Positions 2,040-25,462 of a stretch of DNA of 26,166 nucleotides are shown one piece after another. The notes under the pieces are model-generated. The model saw only the letters and a list, made by a program, of their open reading frames with translations, was not told the origin of the DNA and did not search any database. The first letter of the stretch is position 1. Each line of letters starts with the position of its first letter. A program made the position numbers and the translations under genes. The DNA comes from a virus, in the IMG/VR virus record IMGVR_UViG_3300025887_002434, positions 1 through 26,166 of that record. One strand, given 5' to 3'.

Positions 2040-3110
2040 TCATAATTCGTGGGCTTGTTCGATGGCGCCTAGATTATACTGGTTTAAGAATTCCAAAAAC
2101 TTTCTATTATCTGGAAAATGGGCCTTTGCGACATCAAGGTCATACTGTCTATAGCGATAGAGTTGAGAGTAGTATTCACTTGATGGCTTCAGATCTTTCT
2201 CTGACAGCCTCAACTTTTCTACTTCTTCGCTCGGAGTATGAAACTTTGCCCCTCCATCTCCAAAAGTGCATATTTGTGTCTTCATTGAGGGTCGCCCGAT
2301 GATTTTAGACGCAGTGTATTCCGATTCGATCAAAGCCGCGTAGTTTTCATCATCCATAGCAGCTTCAATCAGGATCGATTGATAGACGCCGATTTGAGGT
2401 TGGTGAAAAGGGAATTCTAATACAGGCAGCTTCGGTTCTGAGCTGGCTACATAGTTGTCGATATATACCCGTCCGTCCCTGTGCGAAACGTCTTTAGGGT
2501 AAGGGAACCCCATATTTTGAGAGAGTAGTAACTCCGAGGAAAGGTTCAGAAAAATTAGACCGTTAATGGCGAGAATGAATGACGATGGTTTGTGCATGAA
2601 CACGGGATCAGAAGCCCCACTCATAACCAAACCTCTAAAATCAGGCCGATTGGGATAGACGAGGACGCAACGATCTTTTTTGCCAAGACGTTCATCGATG
2701 TAGAACTTTGGTGCCGGTGTTGGCCAGTCCTTGTTCAACAGCATGTTGCCCAGCCAAAGGCCAATTCGAACCTTATCAAACCAATCGAGCAGGTCGTCCC
2801 ACTCAGCCCCGGTCAAATTGCCACCTGCTAGTAGTCGAACCATGTACCCTTTGGTTCTTCCCTCAAGGTTAGAATATCGCTCATTGCAGTCTGTGCACGC
2901 GGGAAACTGAAATTGTTGAGCAGAAAAATTGCGAGGCTTTCTGTTTGGATCGCTCGTTTCTACCCCTAGGTGCCAAAGCCTTTTAGGATCACCTGTGAGT
3001 GCGATGAGCCACTTAGGAATGACATGTTCCTTATTCTTTATTGTTGGTGGTTTGCCACAGAAAATACACATCTTCTCACTTTTCGTTGGCAATGCTTCGA
3101 CATCAACCAT
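2040..3110 (-). CDS. HNH-endonuclease-like moron gene inside the tail operon
   Basis: A 356-residue protein with an N-terminal zinc-type HNH signature: C15-x2-C18, then E28-H29-V-I-P, then C72-x2-C75-N76. This is the C..C / H / C..CN layout of McrA-like HNH nucleases. The remaining 270 residues match no family I recognise. The start is the ATG at 3110, preceded on that strand by a purine-rich GAGGGGAAGAGGG stretch that can bind ribosomes; Met14 is a weaker alternative. The gene is transcribed against all surrounding structural genes and is much AT-richer than they are. This is the hallmark of a moron with its own promoter, a late arrival carrying a lysogeny or defence function. Whether it cuts DNA, RNA or nothing cannot be seen. 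The HNH-like fold is likely; the target is unknown. Confidence 0.75.
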   Translation of the reverse strand: MVDVEALPTKSEKMCIFCGKPPTIKNKEHVIPKWLIALTGDPKRLWHLGVETSDPNRKPRNFSAQQFQFPACTDCNERYSNLEGRTKGYMVRLLAGGNLTGAEWDDLLDWFDKVRIGLWLGNMLLNKDWPTPAPKFYIDERLGKKDRCVLVYPNRPDFRGLVMSGASDPVFMHKPSSFILAINGLIFLNLSSELLLSQNMGFPYPKDVSHRDGRVYIDNYVASSEPKLPVLEFPFHQPQIGVYQSILIEAAMDDENYAALIESEYTASKIIGRPSMKTQICTFGDGGAKFHTPSEEVEKLRLSEKDLKPSSEYYSQLYRYRQYDLDVAKAHFPDNRKFLEFLNQYNLGAIEQAHEL

Positions 3111-3769: not shown

Positions 3770-4708
3770 ATGGCACGTGCGCAAGGCGCGCGGGCGCAGA
3801 TGGCGCTTGCGTATGAGACCGTTTACGGCACCCCGCCGGTCAGTGGGTTCCGCTTGATGCCCTTCGCCCGGGCGACGCTCGGGTCGGAACAGCCGTTGCT
3901 GGAATCCGAACTGCTGGGCTATGGCCGCGATCCTCTGGCCCCGATCAAGGACGCGGTCACCGCCGACGGTGAGGTGGTGATCCCCATCGATGTGGAAGCT
4001 TTCGGCTTTTGGCTGAAGGCGGCGTTCGGCCAACCCACCACCACCGGCACAACCCCCAAGACCCATACGTTCCAGTCCGGCAACTGGACGCTTCCCAGCA
4101 TGTCGATCGAGACGGCGATGCCGGAGGTGCCCCGCTTTGCGATGTATTCCGGCTGTGTACTGGATCAGCTGTCCTGGCAGATGCAGCGTTCCGGCCTTTT
4201 GACGGCCTCTGCAAAATTGATCGCCCAAGGCGAGACAATCGCCGCCACGACCGCTGCAGGCACGCCGACCGCACTCGGGCTGCAACGCTTTGGCCATTTC
4301 AACGGCACCGTAAAGCGCAATGGCACCGCGCTGGGCAATGTGGTCTCTGCCGAGATCACCTATTCCAACAACCTCGACCGCATTGAGACCATCCGCGGCG
4401 ATGGCCGCATTGATGGGGCTGACCCCACTATGGCGGCGCTGACGGGCCGGATCGAAGTGCGGTTCTCCGACACGACGCTGGTGACGCAAGCCATCGACGG
4501 CAGCCCCTGCGAGTTGGAGTTCAACTACAGCCTCGGGGCCAGTGCGAGTTTCACCTTCACAGCACATGCCGTGTACCTGCCGATTCCCCGGATCGAGATT
4601 GCCGGGCCACAGGGCGTGCAGGCCAGCTTTGACTGGCAGGCCGCCAAGGCCACCAGCCCGGCCCGCATGTGCACCGTCGTTCTCGTCAACACACTTACAG
4701 GATACTGA
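3770..4708 (+). CDS. Phage tail tube protein (major tail protein)
   Basis: A 312-residue protein that forms the tube of a long non-contractile tail (Phage_tube_2-type family). The N-terminus (MARAQGARAQ, then YETVYGTPP) is the typical opening of this family in Rhodobacteraceae phages, followed by an ELLGYGRDP element and a central strand-rich region with WTLPSMSIETAMP. A C-terminal repeat of the fold contains FTFTAHAVYLPIPR. A GAGGAG ribosome site stands about nine bases before the ATG. It is followed two bases after its stop by the chaperone gene, the usual order (terminator, tube, chaperone, tape measure). Confidence 0.85.
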   Translation: MARAQGARAQMALAYETVYGTPPVSGFRLMPFARATLGSEQPLLESELLGYGRDPLAPIKDAVTADGEVVIPIDVEAFGFWLKAAFGQPTTTGTTPKTHTFQSGNWTLPSMSIETAMPEVPRFAMYSGCVLDQLSWQMQRSGLLTASAKLIAQGETIAATTAAGTPTALGLQRFGHFNGTVKRNGTALGNVVSAEITYSNNLDRIETIRGDGRIDGADPTMAALTGRIEVRFSDTTLVTQAIDGSPCELEFNYSLGASASFTFTAHAVYLPIPRIEIAGPQGVQASFDWQAAKATSPARMCTVVLVNTLTGY

Positions 4709-4710
4709 TC

Positions 4711-5148
4711 ATGATCCGACTGAACCTGACCGCCGCGCCGGAGTGGCTGGACCTCACCCCCGACCTGCGCCTACTTGTGGGGCCTCTGACCACTGCACTG
4801 ATGGTCTCAGCCCGCGCCGATCTGGCCGTCGAGGAATTGCCCGAGGGCGCCACCCAAGAGGAAATGGCCCTCGCGATGGCCAAGGCGGTCGCCCGCCGTG
4901 CGGTTCTGGATTGGGAGGGTGTCGGCGATGATGCGGGCAATATCGTGCCCGTAAGCCCTGAAGGGATCGACGCCCTGCTGGAAATCTGGCCGGTTTTTGA
5001 GGCGTTCCAGACCCAATATGTCGCGCGCGGCCTGCTGCTGGACGCCGAAAAAAACGCCTCCGCGCCCTTGCCGACTGGTCCTTCGGCGGGGGCGACCGCT
5101 ACTGCGCAGCCTGCGCGGGGCGCTGCCCGGACTGCCCCGCAAGACTGA
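4711..5148 (+). CDS. Tail assembly chaperone (gpG-like), zero-frame product
   Basis: A 145-residue protein in the chaperone position between tail tube and tape measure. It coats the tape measure protein during tail assembly and is not part of the virion. The ATG at 4711 starts MIRLNLTAAPEWLDL. Residues 45-110 are acidic and helical with conserved-looking WEGVGDDAGN and FEAFQTQYVARGLLL segments. After codon 115 the reading turns into an Ala/Thr/Pro/Gly-rich tail of low complexity up to the stop at 5146-5148. The change of character coincides with a slippery heptamer, which suggests that the Ala-rich tail is what ribosomes make when they do not shift frame. An in-frame alternative start upstream (4669) lies inside the tube gene and is not preferred. 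Confidence 0.8.
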   Translation: MIRLNLTAAPEWLDLTPDLRLLVGPLTTALMVSARADLAVEELPEGATQEEMALAMAKAVARRAVLDWEGVGDDAGNIVPVSPEGIDALLEIWPVFEAFQTQYVARGLLLDAEKNASAPLPTGPSAGATATAQPARGAARTAPQD

Positions 5149-5378
5149 ACCGACCGCAGACGCCAGAGGGCTGGCAGGTCTGGGACCTCGTCGGCCGCCT
5201 TGGCGGGCAACTGCGTGTGATCCCCGGCGCTGTGCTCGGCTGGGACATGGGTGCGGCGCTGTCTCTTGCTCGCGCGCTGGGCATAGATGCCCTGATCGCC
5301 GCCGAACTGCTGCCCGAGATCGAGGCGGTGATGGTGCGCAAACTGAACGAACAGATGGAAGGTGGCCGCGATGGCTGA
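4711..5378 (+). CDS. Tail assembly chaperone, -1 frameshift product (gpGT-like)
   Basis: Predicted fusion of about 222 residues: codons 1-115 of the chaperone gene, a -1 slip at 5049-5055, then 107 codons from base 5055 to the TGA at 5376-5378. The downstream frame is open from 5001 to 5378 but has no ATG before its middle and no ribosome site, so it can hardly be expressed alone. It encodes a plausible protein: DWSFGGGDRY, a C-x2-C-x3-C-x2-C cluster, TPEGWQVWDLVGRLGGQL, then a helical C-terminus LIAAELLPEIEAVMVRKLNE. It stops overlapping the tape measure ATG (5371). Phages with long tails commonly make the second chaperone (the T domain, which contacts the tape measure) by frameshifting; lambda G/GT is the model. 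That the slip occurs is inference. Confidence 0.7.
5049..5055 (+). other. Slippery heptamer for programmed -1 frameshift
   Basis: In the chaperone frame the codons are GAA AAA AAC, giving A AAA AAC, a perfect X XXY YYZ heptamer within a run of seven A in otherwise GC-rich sequence. GCGCCC just downstream (5062-5067) could pair with GGGCGC about 50 bases later as a stimulatory structure, although this was not folded. Confidence 0.75.
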
Positions 5379-7839
5379 GAAACGGGTCAGTGTGCGCCTC
5401 GTGGCGGAGGGCGGCCGTCAGGTCCGCGCCGAGCTGGAGGGTGTCGGCGTGGCCGGGGCAAAGGGGTTTGGTCGTCTTTCCCGCGAGATGGAACTGGCCA
5501 ACACCCGGCTTGCAGGTTTCGCGCGCCGGGCAGGCATCGCGATGTCTGCAGCCGCCGCTGCCGCCACCGCGTCGCTCGGCCTGATTGTGCGCTCCACCGC
5601 CGAGAGTGCGACCCAAATCCGCCAGTTCGCGCAAGTGGCTAATGCCACGCCTGACGCCTTGCAACGTTGGTCGGCAGGCGCGCGGACGGTCGGCATCGAG
5701 CAGGAAAAGCTCGCCGATATCCTGAAGGACGTGAACGACCGGGTCGGGGACTTCCTGCAGACTGGCGGTGGGCCGATGGCGGATTTCTTCGAGAGCGTAG
5801 CCCCGCGCGTGGGCGTCACGGCTGATCAGTTTGCGCGGCTGTCGGGGCCTGAGGCGCTGCAGCTCTATGTGGACACGCTGGAACGCGCCGGGCTCGGCCA
5901 GCAGGAGATGACGTTTTATTTGGAAGCCATGGCATCCGATGCCACCCGACTGCTGCCGCTCCTGCGCAACGGGGGCGCGGAAATGGCGCGGCTGGGCGAC
6001 CAGGCGGCTGACCTTGGCGCGGTTCTGGACACCGACGCAATCGAAGCCCTGCGGCGCACGCAGGTGGCACTTGGCACACTGTCGCTGGTGTTCGAGGGCC
6101 TTCGCAACCGGATCGCCGTCGCCGTGGCACCTTCTCTTGAGGCTTTGGCAAACGCATTCGTGGCACTTGCCTCAGACGGTGGAATCTTGCGGTCGGCCAT
6201 CGACGCGCTGATTGGCAACCTCGGTCGCCTCGCCACCTATGCCGCCACCTTCGCCGCCGTCATAGCCGGGCGCTGGGTGGCGGGGCTGGCAGCCGCGGCG
6301 CTCTCTGTCCGTGGCCTCGCCACAGCACTGGTCTTCCTGCGCGGGGCGCTGATCCGCACCGGCATTGGGGCGCTGATCGTCGGCGCTGGCGAGCTGGTCT
6401 ATCAGTTCTCGCAGCTGGTGGACCGGGTTGGCGGCGTAGGCGAGACGTTCCGGCTGCTGGGCGATCTTGCGAAAGAGGTATGGTCCCGGACGGGGCTGTC
6501 GTTCGATGCCGCCTTTGCCAATATGGCGGCCGGGTGGGAAGGTCTGAAAGCAGCGGGGCTTTCGGCGCTTGAGGGTACCATCGCGGGCGTCGTCAGTTTC
6601 GGCGACCGGACGGCGGCCATTTTCCAAGGCGCCTATGATGCAGCGGTCGCAATTTGGGGCAGTCTCCCCGGTGCCATCGGCGACTTTGCCTTCCAGGCCG
6701 CGAACGGACTGATCTCAGGCGTCGAAGCAATGCTGAACGGTGTCGTCACCCGCATCAACACCTTCATCACCGGTCTCAATGCAGCACTGGCGCTGCTGCC
6801 CGACTGGGCAGTGGGCGAAGGCGGCGTCCGGATCGGGACGCTTGATCCGCTGGAACTCGGGCGGATTGGAAACCCCTTCGAAGGGGCGGCCACGACCGCC
6901 GGAACTGCCGCCGCCGATGCCTTCTCAGCTGCGCTATCCCGCACCTATCTCGAACCGCCTGACCTTGGCCTTGGCACCTTGGCCGAGGATGCGCGCGGCC
7001 GCGCCGACGGATATCGCGAGGCAGTTGGCATGCTCGCAGATGCAGCAGTTCGGCCGCTCGCCAGTTGGCAAGCGCTGCGCGACGCGGTCACTGGGACCGG
7101 ATCAGAGGCGGACGCCGCGCTGGCAGATGCTGCCAGTTCTGCTGATGCGCTGGCGGCCGGGCTGAATGACACCGCCACTGCAGCAGATGGCGCAGGCGGT
7201 GCGGCCCGCAATGCCGGTGCGGCGGCGGCTGCGGGTGCCGAACAAGCGGCAACAGGCTGGGGCGCTGTGACGGCGGCACTGGCCGACTATGCTGCAAAGG
7301 CCCGCGATATTGGAGGCGATATCGGCCAGACACTGGTTGGCGCGTTCCAGAGCGCGGAAAACGCTGTGGCCGACTTCGTCAAATCCGGTAAGCTCGATTT
7401 CCGCGATCTCGTCACCTCGATGATTGCCGATCTGGCCAAGCTGGCCGCGCGGCGGTTCATCCTCGGGCCTATCGCCAATGCGCTCTCCGGCGCGCTGGGC
7501 GGTGCTGGCGGTTTGTTCGCCGACATCCTGCATGCCGGTGGCACGGTCGGATCATCGGGCCCGGGCCGCATGGTGCCAGCGATGGCGTTCGCCGGTGCCC
7601 CACGCATGCATTCTGGGGGCTGGGCCGGGCTGAAGCCGGATGAGGTGCCAGCGATCCTGCAACGCGGCGAACGGGTGTTATCCCGTCGCGAGGCCGCTGG
7701 TTATGGACAGGAGCAGTCTTCCGCGCCTGCCATCAATGTCACCATCATGTCGCGTGACGCCGAAAGCTTCCGGCAATCCCGCACGCAGGTCGCAGCCGAC
7801 ATTGCTCGCGCCGTATCCCTCGGCAGGAGGGGAATGTGA
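5371..7839 (+). CDS. Tail tape measure protein
   Basis: An 822-residue protein that sets tail length and is coated by the chaperones. The ATG at 5371 (MAEKRVSVRLVAEGG) is chosen over the GTG at 5362 because GGAAGG sits about eight bases upstream of it and it overlaps the stop of the frameshift product. It has a coiled N-terminal region, hydrophobic stretches around residues 45-65 and 285-345, and Ala-rich helices. The conserved C-terminal block is LDFRDLVTSMIADLAKLAARRF followed by GGWAGLKPDEVPAILQRGERVLSRREA, the standard end of the lambda/GTA-type tape measure. The size is moderate, predicting a fairly short siphovirus tail of roughly 120 nm by the usual 1.5 angstrom per residue rule. Confidence 0.9.
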   Translation: MAEKRVSVRLVAEGGRQVRAELEGVGVAGAKGFGRLSREMELANTRLAGFARRAGIAMSAAAAAATASLGLIVRSTAESATQIRQFAQVANATPDALQRWSAGARTVGIEQEKLADILKDVNDRVGDFLQTGGGPMADFFESVAPRVGVTADQFARLSGPEALQLYVDTLERAGLGQQEMTFYLEAMASDATRLLPLLRNGGAEMARLGDQAADLGAVLDTDAIEALRRTQVALGTLSLVFEGLRNRIAVAVAPSLEALANAFVALASDGGILRSAIDALIGNLGRLATYAATFAAVIAGRWVAGLAAAALSVRGLATALVFLRGALIRTGIGALIVGAGELVYQFSQLVDRVGGVGETFRLLGDLAKEVWSRTGLSFDAAFANMAAGWEGLKAAGLSALEGTIAGVVSFGDRTAAIFQGAYDAAVAIWGSLPGAIGDFAFQAANGLISGVEAMLNGVVTRINTFITGLNAALALLPDWAVGEGGVRIGTLDPLELGRIGNPFEGAATTAGTAAADAFSAALSRTYLEPPDLGLGTLAEDARGRADGYREAVGMLADAAVRPLASWQALRDAVTGTGSEADAALADAASSADALAAGLNDTATAADGAGGAARNAGAAAAAGAEQAATGWGAVTAALADYAAKARDIGGDIGQTLVGAFQSAENAVADFVKSGKLDFRDLVTSMIADLAKLAARRFILGPIANALSGALGGAGGLFADILHAGGTVGSSGPGRMVPAMAFAGAPRMHSGGWAGLKPDEVPAILQRGERVLSRREAAGYGQEQSSAPAINVTIMSRDAESFRQSRTQVAADIARAVSLGRRGM

Positions 7840-9799: not shown

Positions 9800-12700
9800 A
9801 TGGCAACTTTGGTTCTCGGTGCCGTCGGCTCCGCGATTGGCGGCAGCATTGGTGGGTCCATCCTCGGCTTTTCCAGCGCAGCGATCGGCGGCTTCATCGG
9901 ATCAAGCATCGGATCGGTGGTCGACAGTTGGATCGTCTCGTCGCTGGCCCCGGCGCAACGCATCGAGGGCGCGCGGCTCGACAGCTTGCGCATGACCTCC
10001 TCGACCGAAGGGGCCGTGATCCCACGCCTCTTTGGCCGGATGCGGATCGGCGGCAACGTGATCTGGGCCACGGATTTCCGCGAGGAGACCAACACGACCA
10101 ATCAGGGCGGTGGCAAGGGTGGCGGACCCAAGGTCACGACGACCGAGTATCTGTACTTTGCATCCTTCGCCGTAGCGCTCTGCGAAGGGAAGATTACTGG
10201 CATTGGCCGGGTCTGGGCCGACGGCAAGGCCATGGACATGACGGGCGTCACCTGGCGCTGGTATCCGGGCGACGAGGCCCAAACTGCTGACCCGTTCATT
10301 TCAGCGAAAATGGGGGCGGCCAACACCCCAGCCTATCGCGGTACGGCCTATGTCGTTTTCGAGGAACTGGACCTCAGCGCCTTCGGCAATCGTCTGCCAC
10401 AGATCAGCTTCGAGGTATTCCGCCCGCTGGCGGATGCTGACACCGCCGAAGGGCTGGTGAAGGCCGTGACCCTGATCCCGGCGTCGGGTGAGTTCAGCTA
10501 TGCGACGGCCACGGTCAAGAAATCCTCAGGCGCTGGCGGCGCGACCACTGCGGAAAACCTGAACGCGATTGCCGATACATCGGACATCGTTGTGGCGCTG
10601 GACCGGCTGCAATCCATGGCTCCCGTCTTGGAATCTGTGTCACTGGTTGTGGCGTGGTTTGGCGATGACCTGCGCGCAGGGAACTGCAAAGTGCGCCCCG
10701 GCGTGGAGGTAGCCGCCAAGACCACGACGCCCTCGGCATGGTCCGTGAACGGTGTCAGCCGGGCCGACGCGTTTCTGGTCAGTCGTGATGCCGAGGACCG
10801 CCCGGTCTATGGCGGCACGCCAGCTGACTTTGCGGTGGTGCAAGCGATCAGGGAAATGAAAGCGCGGGGCCTGCGCGTCACTTTCTATCCGTTCATCCTG
10901 ATGGACGTGCCATCTGGCAATACCAAACCCAATCCATACAGCGCCAATGCCGCCAGTATCGGCCAGCCGACTTTCCCCTGGCGCGGCCGGATCACCTGTT
11001 CCCCAGCGGCGGGCTATGCGGGAACCGTAGACAAAACCGCCGCGGCCACCACGCAAGTATCGGCTCTGTTCGGCACCGCCATGCCCGCAAGCTTCAATGT
11101 TTCAGGCAGCGATGTCAGCTGGACCGGTCCGGTCGGCGAATGGTCGCTGCGCCGGATGATCCTGCACTACGCCCAACTGTGCAAAGCCGCCGGGGGCGTC
11201 GATGCCTTTCTGATCGGATCGGAAATGCCCGGCCTGACCACCATCCGCTCAGGGGCCAGCACCTATCCTGCCGTTACCGCGTTCAAAGCCCTCGCCAGCG
11301 ATGTGCGCACGATCCTCGGCGCTGGAATCAAGATTGGCTATGCGTCCGACTGGTCGGAATACTTCGGGCACCACCCTGCCGATGGGAGCGGCGATGTCTT
11401 CTTCCACCTCGACCCGCTCTGGTCCGACAGCAACATCGATTTCATCGGCATCGATAACTATATGCCGCTGTCCGATTGGCGCGATGGGTTTGACCATGCC
11501 GACGCTGCATTGGCCGCCGCGATCTACGACCGCGCCTATCTGCAATCCAACATCACCGGTGGCGAGGGGTTTGACTGGTTCTACGCCAACCCGGCTGACC
11601 GCGCCGCGCAGGTCAGGACGCCGATCGCCGATGGCGGCGCGGGGAAACCATGGGTGTTTCGCTACAAGGATCTGCGGACCTGGTGGCAAAACCTGCATTT
11701 CAACCGATCGGGCGGGGTGGAGAGCGGAACGCCCACCGCATGGGTGCCACAGTCCAAGCCGATCTGGTTCACCGAACTCGGCTGCCCGGCGATTGATCGC
11801 GGCACCAACCAGCCGAACGTCTTCTTTGATCCCAAGTCCTCGGAAAGCTTCACGCCCTATTTCTCGCGCGGTTGGCGGGATGACGCGATCCAACGGGCCT
11901 ATCTCGAGGCGACGTATCTGTTCTGGGGTGCCGCGGCGAACAATCCTGTGTCCGCCATCTATGGCCAACGGATGGTCACGGAGCCGGAATGCGCCGCCTG
12001 GACCTGGGATGCGCGGCCCTATCCGTTCTTTCCCGAACTGACTGGTGTCTGGACCGACGGGCCGAATTGGCGGCTGGGCCACTGGCTGACAGGGCGGCTG
12101 GGCGCGGTGTCGCTGGCAGCGCTCGTCCGACACCTTTGCCTGCGCGCGGGAATGCCGGAAGACCAGATCGAAGTCTCCGGCCTTTGGGGTGCCGTTGAAG
12201 GCTATGTGATCTCGGCACTGGAAGCTCCGAGGGCGTCGATCAGCACCTTGGCTAGGCACTTCGGCTTCGATGCCGTCGAGAGCGAGGGCCGCATCAAGTT
12301 CCTGATGCGCGGCCGGATCGCCAGCGCCATCGTCACCCCTGACAGCATGGTGGCACCATCATCGGCGCAAGGCGACGTCATGGAACTCACCCGCGCACAA
12401 GAAACCGAACTGCCGCAAGCCCTCAAATGGCAAGTCGCTCGCGCCGACGAGGATTATGATGCAGCACAGGTCGAAGCCCAACGGATCACCGTAGACACCA
12501 CGCGCATCGCCTCCGAGGCGTTCCCGATGGCGGTGCCACCCGAAGAGGCCGAACGGCGCTGCCGTCGCGCGCTGATGGAGGCGTGGGTTGGGCGCGAAAG
12601 TGCGGTGTTTCGCCTGCCGCCCTCGCGCCTGGCGCTCGATCCCTGCGACGTCATCCTGCTCGACCACGATGGCCGCCTGACAGAATTGCGCCTCGTATCC

Positions 12701-13771
12701 ATAGCCGATTCGGACCTGCGCAGCATCGACGCCGTGCGCCAGGACCGGTCGGTCTATGACCTACCACCCGGCGAGCCACGCCCGGCGTCGCTGTCGAAGC
12801 CCACTGTATTCGGCACGCCTGACGTCGTCCTCTTGGACCTGCCGCAGCTGCGCGAGGATCAACCGGCGCACCGGCCCTTGATCGCCGCCCATGCCAAGCC
12901 GTGGCCGGGCGGGATCGCGGTCTACCGCAGCGCCGCGACCGACGGCTTTGCCCTGATGACCACTTTTAGCACTCGGGCGCGGATGGGCGTGCTCGCAGCT
13001 GACTTCTATGAAGGGCCGGTCTCGAGGTTCGATCTCGGCAATGCGTTGGTCATCGATCTATATTCTGGCACCCTCGAGAGCGTCACAGACATCAGCCTGC
13101 TGGGCGGGGCGAATGCGCTGGCCATCGAGACCAGCGCTGGGCAGTGGGAAATCATCCAGGCTGGCAATGCTGATTTGATCGCGCCGGGTCGCTATCGTTT
13201 GACCCGGCTGCTTCGTGGTCAGCGCGGAACTGAATACGCAGTTGCCAGCGTCGTTGCCACAGGCGCGCGGTTGGTGGTGCTGGATACGGCCCTCGCCAGC
13301 CTGCCGATCTCCGAAGCCGATCTCGGGCTGCCATGGAACTGGCGCACTGGCCCGGCGTCTAAGCCAGTCAGTGACGAGACCTTTGTCGCAACGACGTTCA
13401 CGCCGGAGGGCGCTGGGCTGCGGCCCTTCTCGGTGGGCCATGTCGAACAGCCATGGCGCACCGCGCGCAACACCGGTGACCTTACCATCCGCTGGACGCG
13501 CCGGTCGCGGTCGCTGGCAGCAGACACCTGGGGCGCGGGCGATGTACCCTTGGCCGAGGACAGTGAAGCCTATGAGGTGGAAATCCGCGACGGCGGGGCA
13601 ATAAAGCGCACGCTGAGTACCACCACGACCAGCGTTCTCTACACCGCCGCGCAGCAGACCGCTGATTGGGGTAGTCCCCTCGGCCCCGGCCAATCCCTCG
13701 CGATCCGTATTTACCAGCTCTCGGCTTTGATCGGCCGGGGCGCTGGGCGATCCGTCACCCTCACTTTCTGA
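9800..13771 (+). CDS. Large tail-tip protein with GTA TIM-barrel domain (GTA g15-like)
   Basis: A 1323-residue receptor-facing tip protein. The N-terminus is a glycine-zipper-like stretch (residues 1-45, repeated GG/GS). A glycoside-hydrolase-like TIM barrel lies around residues 420-760, with candidate catalytic acids E475 (IGSEMPGL) and E659 (WFTELGCPAIDRG) and a GIDNYMPLSDWRDG block. A phage-tail (tail tip attachment) domain spans roughly 800-1050, and a C-terminal beta domain has LTRLLRGQRGTEYA. This is the domain order of GTA protein g15, and the length is close to the family (about 1300). It may cleave capsule or peptidoglycan glycans. It is separated by 10 bases from the peptidase gene and belongs to the same transcript. 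Confidence 0.92.
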   Translation: MATLVLGAVGSAIGGSIGGSILGFSSAAIGGFIGSSIGSVVDSWIVSSLAPAQRIEGARLDSLRMTSSTEGAVIPRLFGRMRIGGNVIWATDFREETNTTNQGGGKGGGPKVTTTEYLYFASFAVALCEGKITGIGRVWADGKAMDMTGVTWRWYPGDEAQTADPFISAKMGAANTPAYRGTAYVVFEELDLSAFGNRLPQISFEVFRPLADADTAEGLVKAVTLIPASGEFSYATATVKKSSGAGGATTAENLNAIADTSDIVVALDRLQSMAPVLESVSLVVAWFGDDLRAGNCKVRPGVEVAAKTTTPSAWSVNGVSRADAFLVSRDAEDRPVYGGTPADFAVVQAIREMKARGLRVTFYPFILMDVPSGNTKPNPYSANAASIGQPTFPWRGRITCSPAAGYAGTVDKTAAATTQVSALFGTAMPASFNVSGSDVSWTGPVGEWSLRRMILHYAQLCKAAGGVDAFLIGSEMPGLTTIRSGASTYPAVTAFKALASDVRTILGAGIKIGYASDWSEYFGHHPADGSGDVFFHLDPLWSDSNIDFIGIDNYMPLSDWRDGFDHADAALAAAIYDRAYLQSNITGGEGFDWFYANPADRAAQVRTPIADGGAGKPWVFRYKDLRTWWQNLHFNRSGGVESGTPTAWVPQSKPIWFTELGCPAIDRGTNQPNVFFDPKSSESFTPYFSRGWRDDAIQRAYLEATYLFWGAAANNPVSAIYGQRMVTEPECAAWTWDARPYPFFPELTGVWTDGPNWRLGHWLTGRLGAVSLAALVRHLCLRAGMPEDQIEVSGLWGAVEGYVISALEAPRASISTLARHFGFDAVESEGRIKFLMRGRIASAIVTPDSMVAPSSAQGDVMELTRAQETELPQALKWQVARADEDYDAAQVEAQRITVDTTRIASEAFPMAVPPEEAERRCRRALMEAWVGRESAVFRLPPSRLALDPCDVILLDHDGRLTELRLVSIADSDLRSIDAVRQDRSVYDLPPGEPRPASLSKPTVFGTPDVVLLDLPQLREDQPAHRPLIAAHAKPWPGGIAVYRSAATDGFALMTTFSTRARMGVLAADFYEGPVSRFDLGNALVIDLYSGTLESVTDISLLGGANALAIETSAGQWEIIQAGNADLIAPGRYRLTRLLRGQRGTEYAVASVVATGARLVVLDTALASLPISEADLGLPWNWRTGPASKPVSDETFVATTFTPEGAGLRPFSVGHVEQPWRTARNTGDLTIRWTRRSRSLAADTWGAGDVPLAEDSEAYEVEIRDGGAIKRTLSTTTTSVLYTAAQQTADWGSPLGPGQSLAIRIYQLSALIGRGAGRSVTLTF

Positions 13772-17255: not shown

Positions 17256-19691
17256 TCATTTTCTATGTCGCTGTACCGACACGACCTCATTCTCAGCTTC
17301 CAACGCAACCATAATTGTTTCCAAATGTTGTACATCGCGGACATTGACATTGATCGCTAGTGTATGAAAACCTTCAGTCATATCCTGCAAACTGATTTGG
17401 CAGACGTTAGAGCCCAAATCATGGATCAAAATGAAAACGCGCCCCAAAATATTTGCGTTGTTCAAAACGGCGAGTTCAAGAGAAACCGTATGCACGGCAG
17501 CGTGTCGTCCCGCGCGCCACTCCATATCCAACCATCGATCTGGTCGACTCTCATATTTAGCCAGTTCAAAGCAGTCGATGGCGTGTAAAAGAATTTCCTT
17601 GCCGCTGGAAATGCCAACGATTCTTTCACCAGGCACTGGCTGGCAGCACGAAGCCATTGAAAAGTGTTGGTCGGGTGTGAGACCCACGACTGAGGTCTCT
17701 CTATCGATTTCATCGCTGTGGGTATCGTCAAGCTCTGGGTAAAGGACTCGGACCACGTGATCCCCCGAAATTTTTCCTTCACCTAGATGCTGAAAAACCT
17801 CGGACCCGGATGTAAGACCGATACGTTTAGCAACGACCATCATTGCTTTTTCCGTGACAGCTTTTCCAACGATTTCAAACGCTACGCGAGCTAGTTCTCG
17901 TCCCAATCCAACGAAACGCTCTCGCTCCCCCTCGCGCAGCGCTTTTCGAATCGCAGCTCTCGCCCTACCAGTGACTGCAACACCAACCCAACTCACTTGG
18001 GGTGTTTGTCCTTCAGCGACTATTATTTCTACCGACTGACCATTCTTTAAGCGGGTCCAAAGAGGGACACGAAGCCCATCGATCTTAGCTCCCACACAAG
18101 CGTCACCGATCCGTGTGTGAATTGCGTATGCGAAGTCAATAGGCGTGGCACCATGGGGCAACTTGATGACCTCGCCTTGGGGTGTGAAGCAGAAGACACA
18201 GTCAGCGTAAATCTGCAGCCTTGTAGATTCGAGAAATTCGTCTTGGTCTGTAGTAGCCTTGAATTGCTCCGACAAACTTGAAATCCATTTAGCCGGGTCC
18301 ACAGCCAAATAGTTTTCTGAGCGTAGCCCATTTCGATATGATAGTCCTTCAGCTACACCTCCTTTGGCTATCTCATGCATTTGGTGAGTCCGTATCAGGA
18401 CACTCATTCGCTTCCCATCACGACCCGATACCGTTGTATGGAGTGATCGATAACCGTTTGATTTTGGCTGACTGATGTAGTCTTTGAAGCGCCCCGGAAC
18501 GGCGCGCCACCGCTGATGAATTGCTCCTTGGATACGATAGCAATCGTGTTCCGTAGAAGTCAGTACCAGAAACTGGTAGACATCAGTCAGCCGTTTGAAA
18601 CTTAGTTCTTTCTCTTGCATCGAGAGCCAGATCGAATAGGGCTTTCGAGCACCTCCTGATACCTCTGCGACAATTCCAGCCTTCTCTAGCTCGATGTGAA
18701 TATCTTTGATAACTTTCTCTGCGATATCACCGCCTTCCTTCTTTAGCGCAATGAAACGGCGAATGATCGATGAACGAGCTTTTGGGTTGAGCACCCCAAA
18801 TGCCAGATCCTCAAGTTCATCTCTCATCCAATGCATCCCCATGCGACCGGCGAGGGGGCCAAAGACATCCAGGGTCTCATGTGCTTTCTGCGCCTGTTTG
18901 TCCGGTCGCATCGTTTCTATGGTACGCATATTGTGCAACCGATCCGATAGCTTGACTAGGAGGGCCCGAAGATCCTTTGACGTAGCCATGAACAGCTGCC
19001 GGAAATTTTCTCCTTGCTTGTTTTCGATTGATGCAAGCTGAAGATTGGTCAGTTTTGTCACACCTTCTACTAGGTCTGCGATCTCCTCTCCAAATTCCTC
19101 AACTATCGTCGCCCGAGAGGCCGTTGTGTCTTCAATAGTGTCATGAAGCAACGCAGTTACGATTGATGCATCGTCGAGCCTTTGTTCAGCCAGCATCATC
19201 GCAACCGCAACTGGATGCGAGAAATACGGTTCCCCGGAATGCCTGAACTGTCCTTCATGCATTCTTGCTCCATAGGCAAATGCAGTCCGAATAAGTTCTT
19301 CATTTGTACGTGGATTATATGCCCGCACTAGATTGACAAGATTGTCAACATCCTCGGCCCCTGAAAAATCAATAGGAACCGCGCCTCCTTTCTTCAATAA
19401 GGCAAAAGGAATCTCGCGATCAACGAATTTGTTATTTTCAAATATTCGGCAAGTTGATTGCGTTTCAGGGGAAATATCTCCCATACGAAAAATGCAATCA
19501 TAGACACAGGCATCGCGAAACTGGATCTCGCTCATATCGCAACCTGAGAAGTCTAAACCTTCCCAGATACCGTTATTAAAAAAGGTTCTTGGATCTTCCC
19601 CTGTTGCACCAACCAGGTCAAACAGATCATCTGAGCGGCAAGCATCGACCGCAGCATATTGTTTCGCTGCCCTACTTGTTACCCGCATCAT
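17256..19691 (-). CDS. Long RelA/SpoT homologue: intact (p)ppGpp hydrolase, degenerate synthetase, pentapeptide-like N-terminus
   Basis: An 811-residue RSH protein. Domains: pentapeptide-repeat-like residues 46-68 (F48, M53, F58, V63, F68 at five-residue spacing); HD hydrolase about 115-300; synthetase 340-450; TGS 491-555; Cys/His region 660-715 (SCCQPVPGERIVG); ACT 728-811. Hydrolase residues are all present: R150 and H159 in RHSGEPYFSHP, H183-D184 and E187-D188 in LLHDTIEDT, D250 and N254 in LSDRLHN. The synthetase keeps D370 and Y414 but has GGARKPYSIWLSM and MSVLIRT. The usual GR.K...RK Arg and Lys residues, the R of AVR (L375) and the catalytic E of E.QIRT (S430) are lost. Prediction: a dedicated alarmone hydrolase. 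It overlaps the upstream gene by 20 bases, with AGGAAGG five bases before the first ATG. Chromosomal Rel proteins have about 700-740 residues and lack the N-terminal extension. Confidence 0.9.
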   Translation of the reverse strand: MMRVTSRAAKQYAAVDACRSDDLFDLVGATGEDPRTFFNNGIWEGLDFSGCDMSEIQFRDACVYDCIFRMGDISPETQSTCRIFENNKFVDREIPFALLKKGGAVPIDFSGAEDVDNLVNLVRAYNPRTNEELIRTAFAYGARMHEGQFRHSGEPYFSHPVAVAMMLAEQRLDDASIVTALLHDTIEDTTASRATIVEEFGEEIADLVEGVTKLTNLQLASIENKQGENFRQLFMATSKDLRALLVKLSDRLHNMRTIETMRPDKQAQKAHETLDVFGPLAGRMGMHWMRDELEDLAFGVLNPKARSSIIRRFIALKKEGGDIAEKVIKDIHIELEKAGIVAEVSGGARKPYSIWLSMQEKELSFKRLTDVYQFLVLTSTEHDCYRIQGAIHQRWRAVPGRFKDYISQPKSNGYRSLHTTVSGRDGKRMSVLIRTHQMHEIAKGGVAEGLSYRNGLRSENYLAVDPAKWISSLSEQFKATTDQDEFLESTRLQIYADCVFCFTPQGEVIKLPHGATPIDFAYAIHTRIGDACVGAKIDGLRVPLWTRLKNGQSVEIIVAEGQTPQVSWVGVAVTGRARAAIRKALREGERERFVGLGRELARVAFEIVGKAVTEKAMMVVAKRIGLTSGSEVFQHLGEGKISGDHVVRVLYPELDDTHSDEIDRETSVVGLTPDQHFSMASCCQPVPGERIVGISSGKEILLHAIDCFELAKYESRPDRWLDMEWRAGRHAAVHTVSLELAVLNNANILGRVFILIHDLGSNVCQISLQDMTEGFHTLAINVNVRDVQHLETIMVALEAENEVVSVQRHRK

Positions 19692-22753: not shown

Positions 22754-24361
22754 ATGCGCATTTCATACTCTGTCGAAAACATTCGAAGGCTGACTCAAGT
22801 TGATCCTGTTGAAATTCGACCCATTACGGTTCTCGTGGGACGGAACAGCGCTGGAAAGAGTACCTTCTTAAGATCATTACCACTTATCAGGCAGTCCATT
22901 GAGACGCGGAGCAGTGCCCCAATTCTCTGGTATGGCGATTTGGTTGATTTTGGAGATTTCAAAACAGCAATTTCGGATGACGAGAAGGTCGGTACAGCTA
23001 TCTTTTCGTTCAAAGTGGATGACCTAACTGGCCGTAGCCGCCGAACTGTAAGTCATCAAATCAACTATCTGATCTGGTACAAGACGCAAAACCTACACGT
23101 TCGAGGCCTGGAAGTGAGATATTTTGTCGGGGCTGAAGGAGGAAAAACTGTCTTAAAGAAAATCTCTCTCAAAATTCCGGGTGAGGAAATAGAATGTGAG
23201 ATCATCTACCGCGGCAGGTCCGGGACCGGGGGAACGGTTTCCGTGAACGGCGAAGAAATTAGTCAGATATCTCAGAGTTTTGAAATTGTTAATGCTAGCG
23301 ATAACTTATTCAGTTCTCCAAGCTTGATTTCGAAGGTGAGGGATTCAACTTCAAACGTTAGAAGGCGAAACTCGTATCAAGACGTGTTGGTCGTGGAATT
23401 AGAGAAGCTATTGAGGCGGAGCGTGACCAGAATTTCAAGTGACGACACTTTTAGAACAGAAGTTGCAAACATTATGAGCAGCAAGGTCTGTCTTAACGAA
23501 GTGTGGTCGGAATTAGCAGCGGATGCAGGGACCGTTTCATTCAAAAAGTTCTATCAGTCCATGCAACATAGTGGTTCTTCAAAGGTAAGAAACAGTGTCG
23601 CAACGATCCAGAAAACGTTCCGCTCACTTCAAGTACTTGACCTTCTGAGTGAAAAACTCACGGCTTTCTTCCTTGGCGTAGGCTACCTAGGTCCAGCCCG
23701 CGCTGCCGGTGAACGCTATTATCGCAAGCAGGAATTAGAAGTATCTGAGATTTTGCCCAACGGTTCAAACCTTCCCATGTTTTTGGATTCGCTTTCGACG
23801 AATCAGAAGCGAGCATTTTCTGACTGGGTGGAGAATTTGTTTGGGTACGGTGTAGAGCTTAAATCTTTTGAGGGGCACATCAGCATAAACCTCAAGGCTG
23901 GAAAAAATTCGGTCAACGTTACCGACACAGGATACGGGGTGTCCCAGATATTGCCGGTTTTGGCGACTGTCTGGTGGGCTAGCCAACGTCCGGCGGAGCG
24001 TTGGAGCGCTGCCCATCCGCGTAATACAAATATTCGTACAATTGCAATCGAGCAGCCGGAATTGCACTTGCATCCTGCACACCAAGCAAAGTTGGCGGAC
24101 GTATTCGCTGAAGGGATCGCACTTGGCGCGCGCGAGCATTCGACGAAAATAGTGAATGTTCTTGTCGAAACGCACAGCGAATCTCTAATCAACCGGCTTG
24201 GTGAACTAATTGAAATCGGAACCCTCAACAAGGATGATGTCCAGATCGTGATTTTTTCGGCAGAGGATGACATCAACTCACCGACCAAGGTGTCCTTGGC
24301 GGAGTTTGATGACCGAGGCGCGTTAACAAATTGGCCGTTTGGCTTCTTTAATTATTCTTGA
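22754..24361 (+). CDS. ABC/OLD-type AAA ATPase of a putative defence pair (DUF3696-like)
   Basis: A 535-residue ATPase. Walker A is GRNSAGKST at residues 29-37, the ABC-type signature is DTGYGVSQILPV around 391-401, Walker B is IAIEQPELHLHP at 430-441, and the switch histidine is in VETHSES (H474). The C-terminal NWPFGFF resembles the end of DUF3696-type ATPases. Residues about 100-380 between the nucleotide-binding halves are an insertion with charged helices. Such SMC/OLD-like single-chain ATPases usually work with a nuclease or other effector in anti-phage systems, and here a second gene follows 12 bases later. Start ATG 22754 follows a weak TTGGACGA site. The gene is AT-richer than the phage structural genes. 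Confidence 0.85.
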   Translation: MRISYSVENIRRLTQVDPVEIRPITVLVGRNSAGKSTFLRSLPLIRQSIETRSSAPILWYGDLVDFGDFKTAISDDEKVGTAIFSFKVDDLTGRSRRTVSHQINYLIWYKTQNLHVRGLEVRYFVGAEGGKTVLKKISLKIPGEEIECEIIYRGRSGTGGTVSVNGEEISQISQSFEIVNASDNLFSSPSLISKVRDSTSNVRRRNSYQDVLVVELEKLLRRSVTRISSDDTFRTEVANIMSSKVCLNEVWSELAADAGTVSFKKFYQSMQHSGSSKVRNSVATIQKTFRSLQVLDLLSEKLTAFFLGVGYLGPARAAGERYYRKQELEVSEILPNGSNLPMFLDSLSTNQKRAFSDWVENLFGYGVELKSFEGHISINLKAGKNSVNVTDTGYGVSQILPVLATVWWASQRPAERWSAAHPRNTNIRTIAIEQPELHLHPAHQAKLADVFAEGIALGAREHSTKIVNVLVETHSESLINRLGELIEIGTLNKDDVQIVIFSAEDDINSPTKVSLAEFDDRGALTNWPFGFFNYS

Positions 24362-24373
24362 TGGTAAACTTGC

Positions 24374-25462
24374 ATGATCTTTACACTTAATGGCTCCGTC
24401 GATGAATTAGCGGCTCTGCCAGATGATGAAGTCGAGAACCTTTTTACCATACTCCTGGATGCCGATCGGTCAGGTCGACATTTGGTCGTCATTGAGCGTG
24501 GTGTCTGTAGCTGGGGCGTCGAAAATCTTGATTTATCTGGCCAAAACAGGACACATCTTCGCGGGCTACGAGAGCAATATGCCACACGCGGAAACATCGA
24601 AAGATACGCGGGCTCCTACCTAGAGGTTGTAGTTGGCGATTGTCCTGTCATCAAAGTCGATGACTATTTCAAGATTGGTCACAGTAGCTTCATTTCAGGT
24701 GACTACGCGACATCTAAGACAAAGATGGTCGTCGAAAACCTGAAGGCGGATAGCAAGCTTTATGAATATTTGTTTAACGTCGCAATAAAGCAGACTGTTG
24801 TTCCAAGCTTGGCTGTCGATTTTGTCATGGGCGGAGGCAATACGACGGTCACGGTTTTCGAGGCGGAAATTGAAAAGCACAGGGTTTCTATTTGTGCTGT
24901 TGATACCGACAGAATTTCACCATGTGATCTACTTGGCGAAACAGCGAAAAAAGTAAAAAATAGACATTCCAAAAGGAACTTGCAGCCAAGCGACCCCGCA
25001 ACTGCCTATGTCGGCATTGCAATTGAAACGATCGGGCATGAGTTGGAGAACTATATACCTTTGTCAGCCATAAAACTACTCGACTGCTTTCTTTGTCATG
25101 CTAGTCTTGACAATTTCGTTTCTCAGGAAACTTATGAGGACTCTCTGAATTGCTTCTGGCTCTACTTTGACACAAAGAAAGGGCTTGATGGGGCAAAGAT
25201 TCAGAAAAAAGTTGATGATGGGGTTAAACCGTCCAGCACCATCAGTTGGATTTGTGACAAAACGGGGACGCAGGAAACAGAGTTTGTTTCCCTGAAAATC
25301 CCTGGAATTGGAAGCTCGATCGTGGAGCATTTCCTGAAACATGATGCGGCCAAAGAGCGATATGTAGTGTTTAGCAGGACTGACTATTGGAAAACACTGT
25401 TCTTACGCCACTTTGAGAAACTACTTTGGTTCCTGGCCGCGCCTCAAGTCAGCCGTTCCTAA
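24374..25462 (+). CDS. Putative effector partner of the ATPase, TOPRIM/DUF4435-like core
   Basis: A 362-residue protein with no confident family. A beta strand ending VMGGGN (residues 151-156), a helix, then SICAVDTDR (D177-x-D179), and later GHELENYIP (residues 221-229) follow the order of DUF4435/TOPRIM-like proteins, where a strand-turn, a DxD and an E-N-Y element line the active site. The usual glutamate in the first motif is not obvious. The N-terminal 110 residues contain HLVVIERGVCSWGVENLDL and resemble nothing I know. It lies 12 bases after the ATPase stop in the same direction, so the two form an operon. Proposed role: nuclease-like effector controlled by the ATPase. The identification is inference. 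Confidence 0.65.
   Translation: MIFTLNGSVDELAALPDDEVENLFTILLDADRSGRHLVVIERGVCSWGVENLDLSGQNRTHLRGLREQYATRGNIERYAGSYLEVVVGDCPVIKVDDYFKIGHSSFISGDYATSKTKMVVENLKADSKLYEYLFNVAIKQTVVPSLAVDFVMGGGNTTVTVFEAEIEKHRVSICAVDTDRISPCDLLGETAKKVKNRHSKRNLQPSDPATAYVGIAIETIGHELENYIPLSAIKLLDCFLCHASLDNFVSQETYEDSLNCFWLYFDTKKGLDGAKIQKKVDDGVKPSSTISWICDKTGTQETEFVSLKIPGIGSSIVEHFLKHDAAKERYVVFSRTDYWKTLFLRHFEKLLWFLAAPQVSRS

Follow-up and report, generated by a model that had tools for sequence, protein, structure and literature searches.

Based on sequence comparison, the tail assembly chaperone gene described here very probably undergoes programmed -1 ribosomal frameshifting of the lambda G/GT type at the heptamer A_AAA_AAC. 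The window, that is, the whole stretch of DNA analysed, is a 26,166-base IMG/VR virus record and belongs to a phage of the Rhodobacter group. The heptamer (5049-5055, + strand) lies at the same codon as in related loci. Two products with the first 115 residues in common are predicted, the 145-aa chaperone G, read in the zero frame (4711-5148, + strand), and a 222-aa G-T fusion (4711-5378, + strand), read from 4711 to 5055 and then from 5055 to 5375, with its stop at 5376-5378.

In the left part of the window lies a head-tail operon like those known from Rhodobacteraceae phages. It is related to gene transfer agents, and 9800-13771 encodes GTA TIM-barrel and Rcc01698 C-terminal domains. According to Pfam and PHROG profile matches, the gene order is tail tube, G, T and tape measure. 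The tail tube protein gene (3770-4708, + strand; PF18906 Phage_tube_2, E 2.7e-59) lies just upstream of the chaperone gene, whose zero-frame product matches phrog_313 'Tail assembly chaperone' (E 8.7e-28), and the tape-measure protein gene follows at 5371-7839 on the + strand (Tape_meas_lam_C, E 1.1e-21; phrog_8462, E 6e-157). The start and length of G are kept in relatives, with 115 aa up to the heptamer in 164 of the 170 loci in which a start could be called. The whole window was also scanned for Rfam families and tRNAs, and no match was obtained.

Several other features of the window and its relatives were recorded. A 356-aa protein without a Pfam match (2040-3110, - strand) is reversed within the late head-tail operon; it has a CxxC followed by an H near its N-terminus and looks HNH-like by eye. 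At 17256-19691 (- strand) there is a full-length RelA/SpoT-type protein of 811 aa with HD, synthetase, TGS, AH/RIS and ACT domains and an N-terminal extension; the record that carries it is classed as viral. The stretch 22754-25462 (+ strand) holds an AAA_15 ATPase, matched by PADLOC as NsnB-like (E 1.5e-40) and PDC-M55A-like (E 5.7e-40), and then a 362-aa protein without a family match; the two possibly form a two-gene defence cassette. In Synechococcus phage Sc-Yong805-1 (OP858991.1, 1219-2157), a tail tube protein with 62% identity to that of the window bears the record label 'site-specific tyrosine recombinase'.

The zero-frame codons GAA (5047), AAA (5050) and AAC (5053) place the heptamer in the canonical X XXY YYZ phase near the end of G, so that the first-pass annotation was right in describing it as correctly phased within the chaperone gene. 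That annotation also described a -1 frame open for 126 codons and overlapping the tape-measure ATG, and this holds as well: the frame is open at 5001-5378 (125 aa plus stop), and its TGA at 5376-5378 overlaps the tape-measure ATG at 5371. The whole of 5001-5378 had been proposed as the hidden protein. We retain only the part from 5055 on, where the new protein segment begins, as 5001-5054 is merely open frame before the slip. The T-like segment (5055-5378, + strand) comprises 107 aa and a stop, with the residues RLRALADWSFGGGDRYCAACAGRCPDCPARLN...NEQMEGGRDG. The zero-frame tail past the heptamer reads ASAPLPTGPSAGATATAQPARGAARTAPQD, and the first ATG, GTG or TTG of the -1 frame in the window is the GTG at 5217, 54 codons past the heptamer.

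The heptamer in the window alone is weak evidence against chance. When the chaperone gene was synonymously re-drawn with the phage's own codon usage, an in-phase AAAAAAN appeared in 17% of the re-draws; the 4,689 late-gene codons contain just two X XXY YYZ heptamers that are in phase and have A or T as Y. The doubt is removed by the comparison across relatives that the first-pass annotation had suggested, because the heptamer is kept at the identical codon. In a first sample of 174 distinct related loci from isolates, bacterial genomes and MAGs, virus contigs and annotated phages, A_AAA_AAC occupies exactly this codon in 169; two divergent Rhodobacter phages have G_GGA_AAC, itself a classical slippery site, and one cyanophage has A_AAA_AAA. 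The heptamer is altered in two close relatives, to A_GAA_AAC in L049 (2990-3005 region) and to A_AAG_AAC, beside Ns, in L111, a MAG; these are either weaker sites or sequence faults, and they count against the frameshift reading. A second sample, from about 700 genomes, was picked by the C-terminal Pfam profile (DUF7697) only and thus avoids selection on the N-terminal part. It yielded 56 placeable loci, 54 with A_AAA_AAC and one with A_AAA_AAT at the same codon, i.e. a slippery heptamer in 55 of 56; the one locus without it, L328, matches the profile very weakly. Copies from PLSDB in Shinella and Methylobacterium also have A_AAA_AAC, and as these records list almost no genes they are uninformative on annotation practice.

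The same comparison bears on whether the two frames are an artefact. One explanation is that G and T are truly a single open frame split by a sequencing error, or that the gene has decayed into a pseudogene. Homopolymer runs are indeed error-prone, but the identical frame relation recurs in the 174 distinct loci and the 56 loci of the second sample, and it also holds for G_GGA_AAC, where there is no homopolymer. The single-base error that the first-pass annotation named as a possible refutation was therefore looked for without overturning the reading, and we regard its probability as practically negligible.

The -1 frame behaves as coding sequence that has no start of its own. In none of the 174 loci does the -1 part contain an ATG, GTG or TTG within its first 30 codons, and in 139 of them the -1 frame lacks these codons upstream as well. 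The lack of a usable start, claimed from the window, thus extends to the relatives, and the homologues with an independent T start that would have spoken against the claim did not appear within these 30 codons. Substitution rates were compared by codon position in 91 ungapped loci. Before the heptamer, they are 0.115/0.082/0.402 at zero-frame positions 1/2/3, and within the heptamer there are no substitutions. In the overlap, the rates at -1 codon positions 1/2/3 are 0.078/0.055/0.243, and past the zero-frame stop they are 0.125/0.052/0.322. Since the third-position peak moves to the -1 frame, the coding frame switches at the heptamer. The Ala/Pro/Thr tail of the zero frame has no third-position signal of its own in these loci, in agreement with its earlier description as filler. 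The -1 frame had also been called a coherent protein, and it does encode a conserved domain of 107 aa, with DUF7697 as its C-terminal half. The invariant residues of T lie mostly in the start-less part (R1, W8, G11, G13, Y16, C17, C20, C27 and P28), with W43 also invariant, among aligned sequences that diverge to about 36% identity.

These data also decide on the explanation that T is an independent gene with its own internal start, at GTG 5217 or later, the -1 frame upstream being incidental. The DUF7697 and phrog_11212 models do begin in the internal GTG/TTG region, as gene callers do. However, the start is not conserved, the first ATG or GTG falling at codon index 54, 59, 60, 64 or elsewhere depending on the locus, and the 54 codons before the GTG are under protein-level constraint and contain most of the invariant residues. 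Internal initiation fails as an explanation because these first 54 residues are constrained, and we consider an independent T gene extremely unlikely.

Within the start-less part, T residues 17-27 (5103-5135, + strand) form a conserved four-cysteine motif, CxxCxxxCxxC, in which C17, C20 and C27 are invariant and C24 is kept in at least 90% of 41 aligned sequences; the pattern suggests a putative metal site. An AlphaFold2 model of the T domain has a mean pLDDT of only 64.5. Foldseek searches with this model against BFVD and PDB found nothing significant (best E 0.19, to an uncharacterised myovirus protein), and the matches labelled 'tape measure chaperone' were weak (E 0.5-0.6). Because of the low model confidence and the lack of a significant match, the fold was not taken as evidence. 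The T-domain profile found no match among PDB sequences.

Downstream of the heptamer, a 7-nt spacer (5056-5062, + strand) leads to a stem-loop of 12 base pairs (5063-5094, + strand; 5063-5074 with 5083-5094), the probable stimulator. The stem-loop is kept beyond what the protein needs. In the window its stability is -24.7 kcal/mol, compared with a mean of -18.3 for synonymous recodings of the same peptide (p 0.02). Excess stability against synonymous recoding is found at p < 0.04 in 13 of 17 loci, including the divergent RcKemmy, RcOceanus and cyanophage loci and one gut-phage copy; it is not clear in the other 4, which is a further point against frameshifting. Codon choice follows the same pattern. 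Of 169 close loci, 168 use CTC or CTT for the Leu at codon 5 of T and none uses CTG, the codon for more than half of the Leu in these genes, and codon 12 (Gly) is GGG in 146 close loci. Across 28 aligned loci, the stem positions pair in 92.9% of cells, against 42-57% in slid registers. There are 4 double changes, a number reached by 10 of 500 shuffles, and this strict covariation support is modest because the protein sequence constrains the same bases. Overall, the stem-loop is likely to be a frameshift stimulator.

The spacing of the stem is also relevant to transcriptional slippage, in which RNA polymerase would stutter on the A run and the resulting mixed mRNAs would give the fusion. Seven consecutive A residues are present at 5048-5054. 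Nevertheless, such slippage usually needs at least eight identical bases in a row or a combination of two shorter runs (PMC3711429), so the run of seven falls short of the eight-base homopolymer, and its seventh A is in any case dictated by the Glu codon. What the relatives preserve is the phase and the tandem-slip pattern, not the length of the run, as seen from G_GGA_AAC in the Rhodobacter phages and in all the DUF1799 loci described below, and a stem 7 nt downstream is expected for ribosomal slippage. Transcriptional slippage is thus very unlikely. Like an independent start and sequencing error, it was tested and rejected as the main explanation.

For programmed ribosomal frameshifting, we infer both the occurrence of slippage and its rate from these sequence features. 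Most ribosomes would read 4711-5148 and produce G. The stem-loop probably stalls ribosomes on A_AAA_AAC, where a minority would slip back by one base, tRNA-Lys and tRNA-Asn pairing anew with AAA AAA; these ribosomes would continue to 5378 to give the G-T fusion. One published observation counts against this reading: in E. coli, A_AAA_AAC promotes less shifting than A_AAA_AAG (PMC5009743). What the two products may do is suggested by the lambda proteins gpG and gpGT (Levin et al. 1993; Xu et al. 2004, 2013, 2014; reviewed in PMC5009743), which are needed at a gpG:gpGT ratio of about 30:1, G binding the tape measure and T recruiting the tube protein (PMC5009743). By analogy, G would coat the tape-measure protein, and the T part of the fusion would recruit the tail tube protein and so start and time tail polymerisation. 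Both G and G-T would be absent from the finished virion.

The slippery site of lambda is G_GGA_AAG. The present locus resembles lambda G/GT in the order of tube, G, T and tape measure, in having, close to the end of G, a heptamer for tandem slippage into the -1 frame, and in its start-less T. It differs in the heptamer, in its strong 3' stem-loop and in the four-cysteine motif of T, and no match was found between the T of the window and that of lambda. The lambda logic proposed at first is upheld by the position, the phase of the heptamer, the start-less conserved -1 ORF, the conservation of the site and the chaperone profile, together with two-piece joins in homologous phages. These phages are Rhodobacter capsulatus phages RcKemmy and RcOceanus and nine relatives (MW677517, MW677520), which have homologous G and T at the same position, with 38-41% identity in G and 52-53% in T; they differ from the window in their heptamer, G_GGA_AAC, and in a longer T tail. 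The GenBank records of RcKemmy and RcOceanus give a two-piece join 'tail assembly chaperone' beside the short form, and the Rhodobacter capsulatus phage paper calls programmed frameshifting usual for tail assembly chaperone genes (PMC8601537). As these sources cover the homologous gene, the mechanism is known and our locus is a further case. The 'hidden second chaperone' of the first-pass annotation therefore needs rewording: it was rightly seen as a frameshift product, but it is a G-T fusion rather than a separate protein, better called a frameshift-extended form, and it is not hidden in the sense that the homologous gene is already annotated with a frameshift.

What the literature search did not find was any mention of DUF7697, or of DUF1799 together with a frameshift. 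DUF7697 (PF24752; 5217-5369, + strand) matches residues 73-123 of the -1 ORF with 97.7 bits (E 3.6e-28; gathering score 27 bits) and begins exactly at the internal GTG, the first of the -1 frame. The phrog_11212 model begins two residues before that GTG; in 30 loci, the codon at this point is the earliest one that could serve as a start. Both models cover the C-terminal 51-54 residues of the T of the window and miss the first half of the domain; they look like truncated half-domain models built from false internal GTG/TTG starts. In the family around Gemmobacter, 298 genomes were sampled and 68 of them carry DUF7697.

DUF1799 (PF08809), filed as a phage hypothetical protein, scores 15.1 bits on the T of the window (E 0.028), below its gathering score of 26 bits. 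It was followed into 20 prophage loci (L257-L276) of the same bacterial family. In all 20, an in-phase G_GGA_AAC precedes DUF1799 behind the tail chaperone gene, and DUF1799 lies in the -1 frame; in 18 a zero-frame stop directly follows the heptamer, and several loci have later internal start codons. From this arrangement DUF1799 looks like a frameshift-dependent T domain. A one-to-one profile comparison with the T of the window gave E 2.3e-4 over 61 columns, against E 0.15 or more among the ten column shuffles listed, so shared descent is likely but not certain. The DUF1799 loci resemble the window in that a T segment lacking a start lies in the -1 frame after a tail chaperone gene, and in this weak profile similarity, while they differ in the heptamer, the usually immediate zero-frame stop and the absence of the cysteine motif. 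Tentatively, and as a proposal somewhat more doubtful than probable, the T half may be a small module that binds a metal (zinc) and arises only through frameshifting, its four cysteines lying soon after the slip site. On the same proposal, DUF7697 and DUF1799 would be two branches of a single superfamily of start-less T domains in alphaproteobacterial prophages, whose members gene callers and Pfam would have truncated or overlooked.

As judged from sequence, the locus is a well-supported further case of tail-chaperone frameshifting. Because DUF7697 and phrog_11212 appear to be half-domains and DUF1799 a T domain made only by frameshifting, the annotation of this locus is likely to be wrong in many alphaproteobacterial prophages. 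The practical correction would be to treat two 'unknown' protein families as parts of slipped chaperone products.
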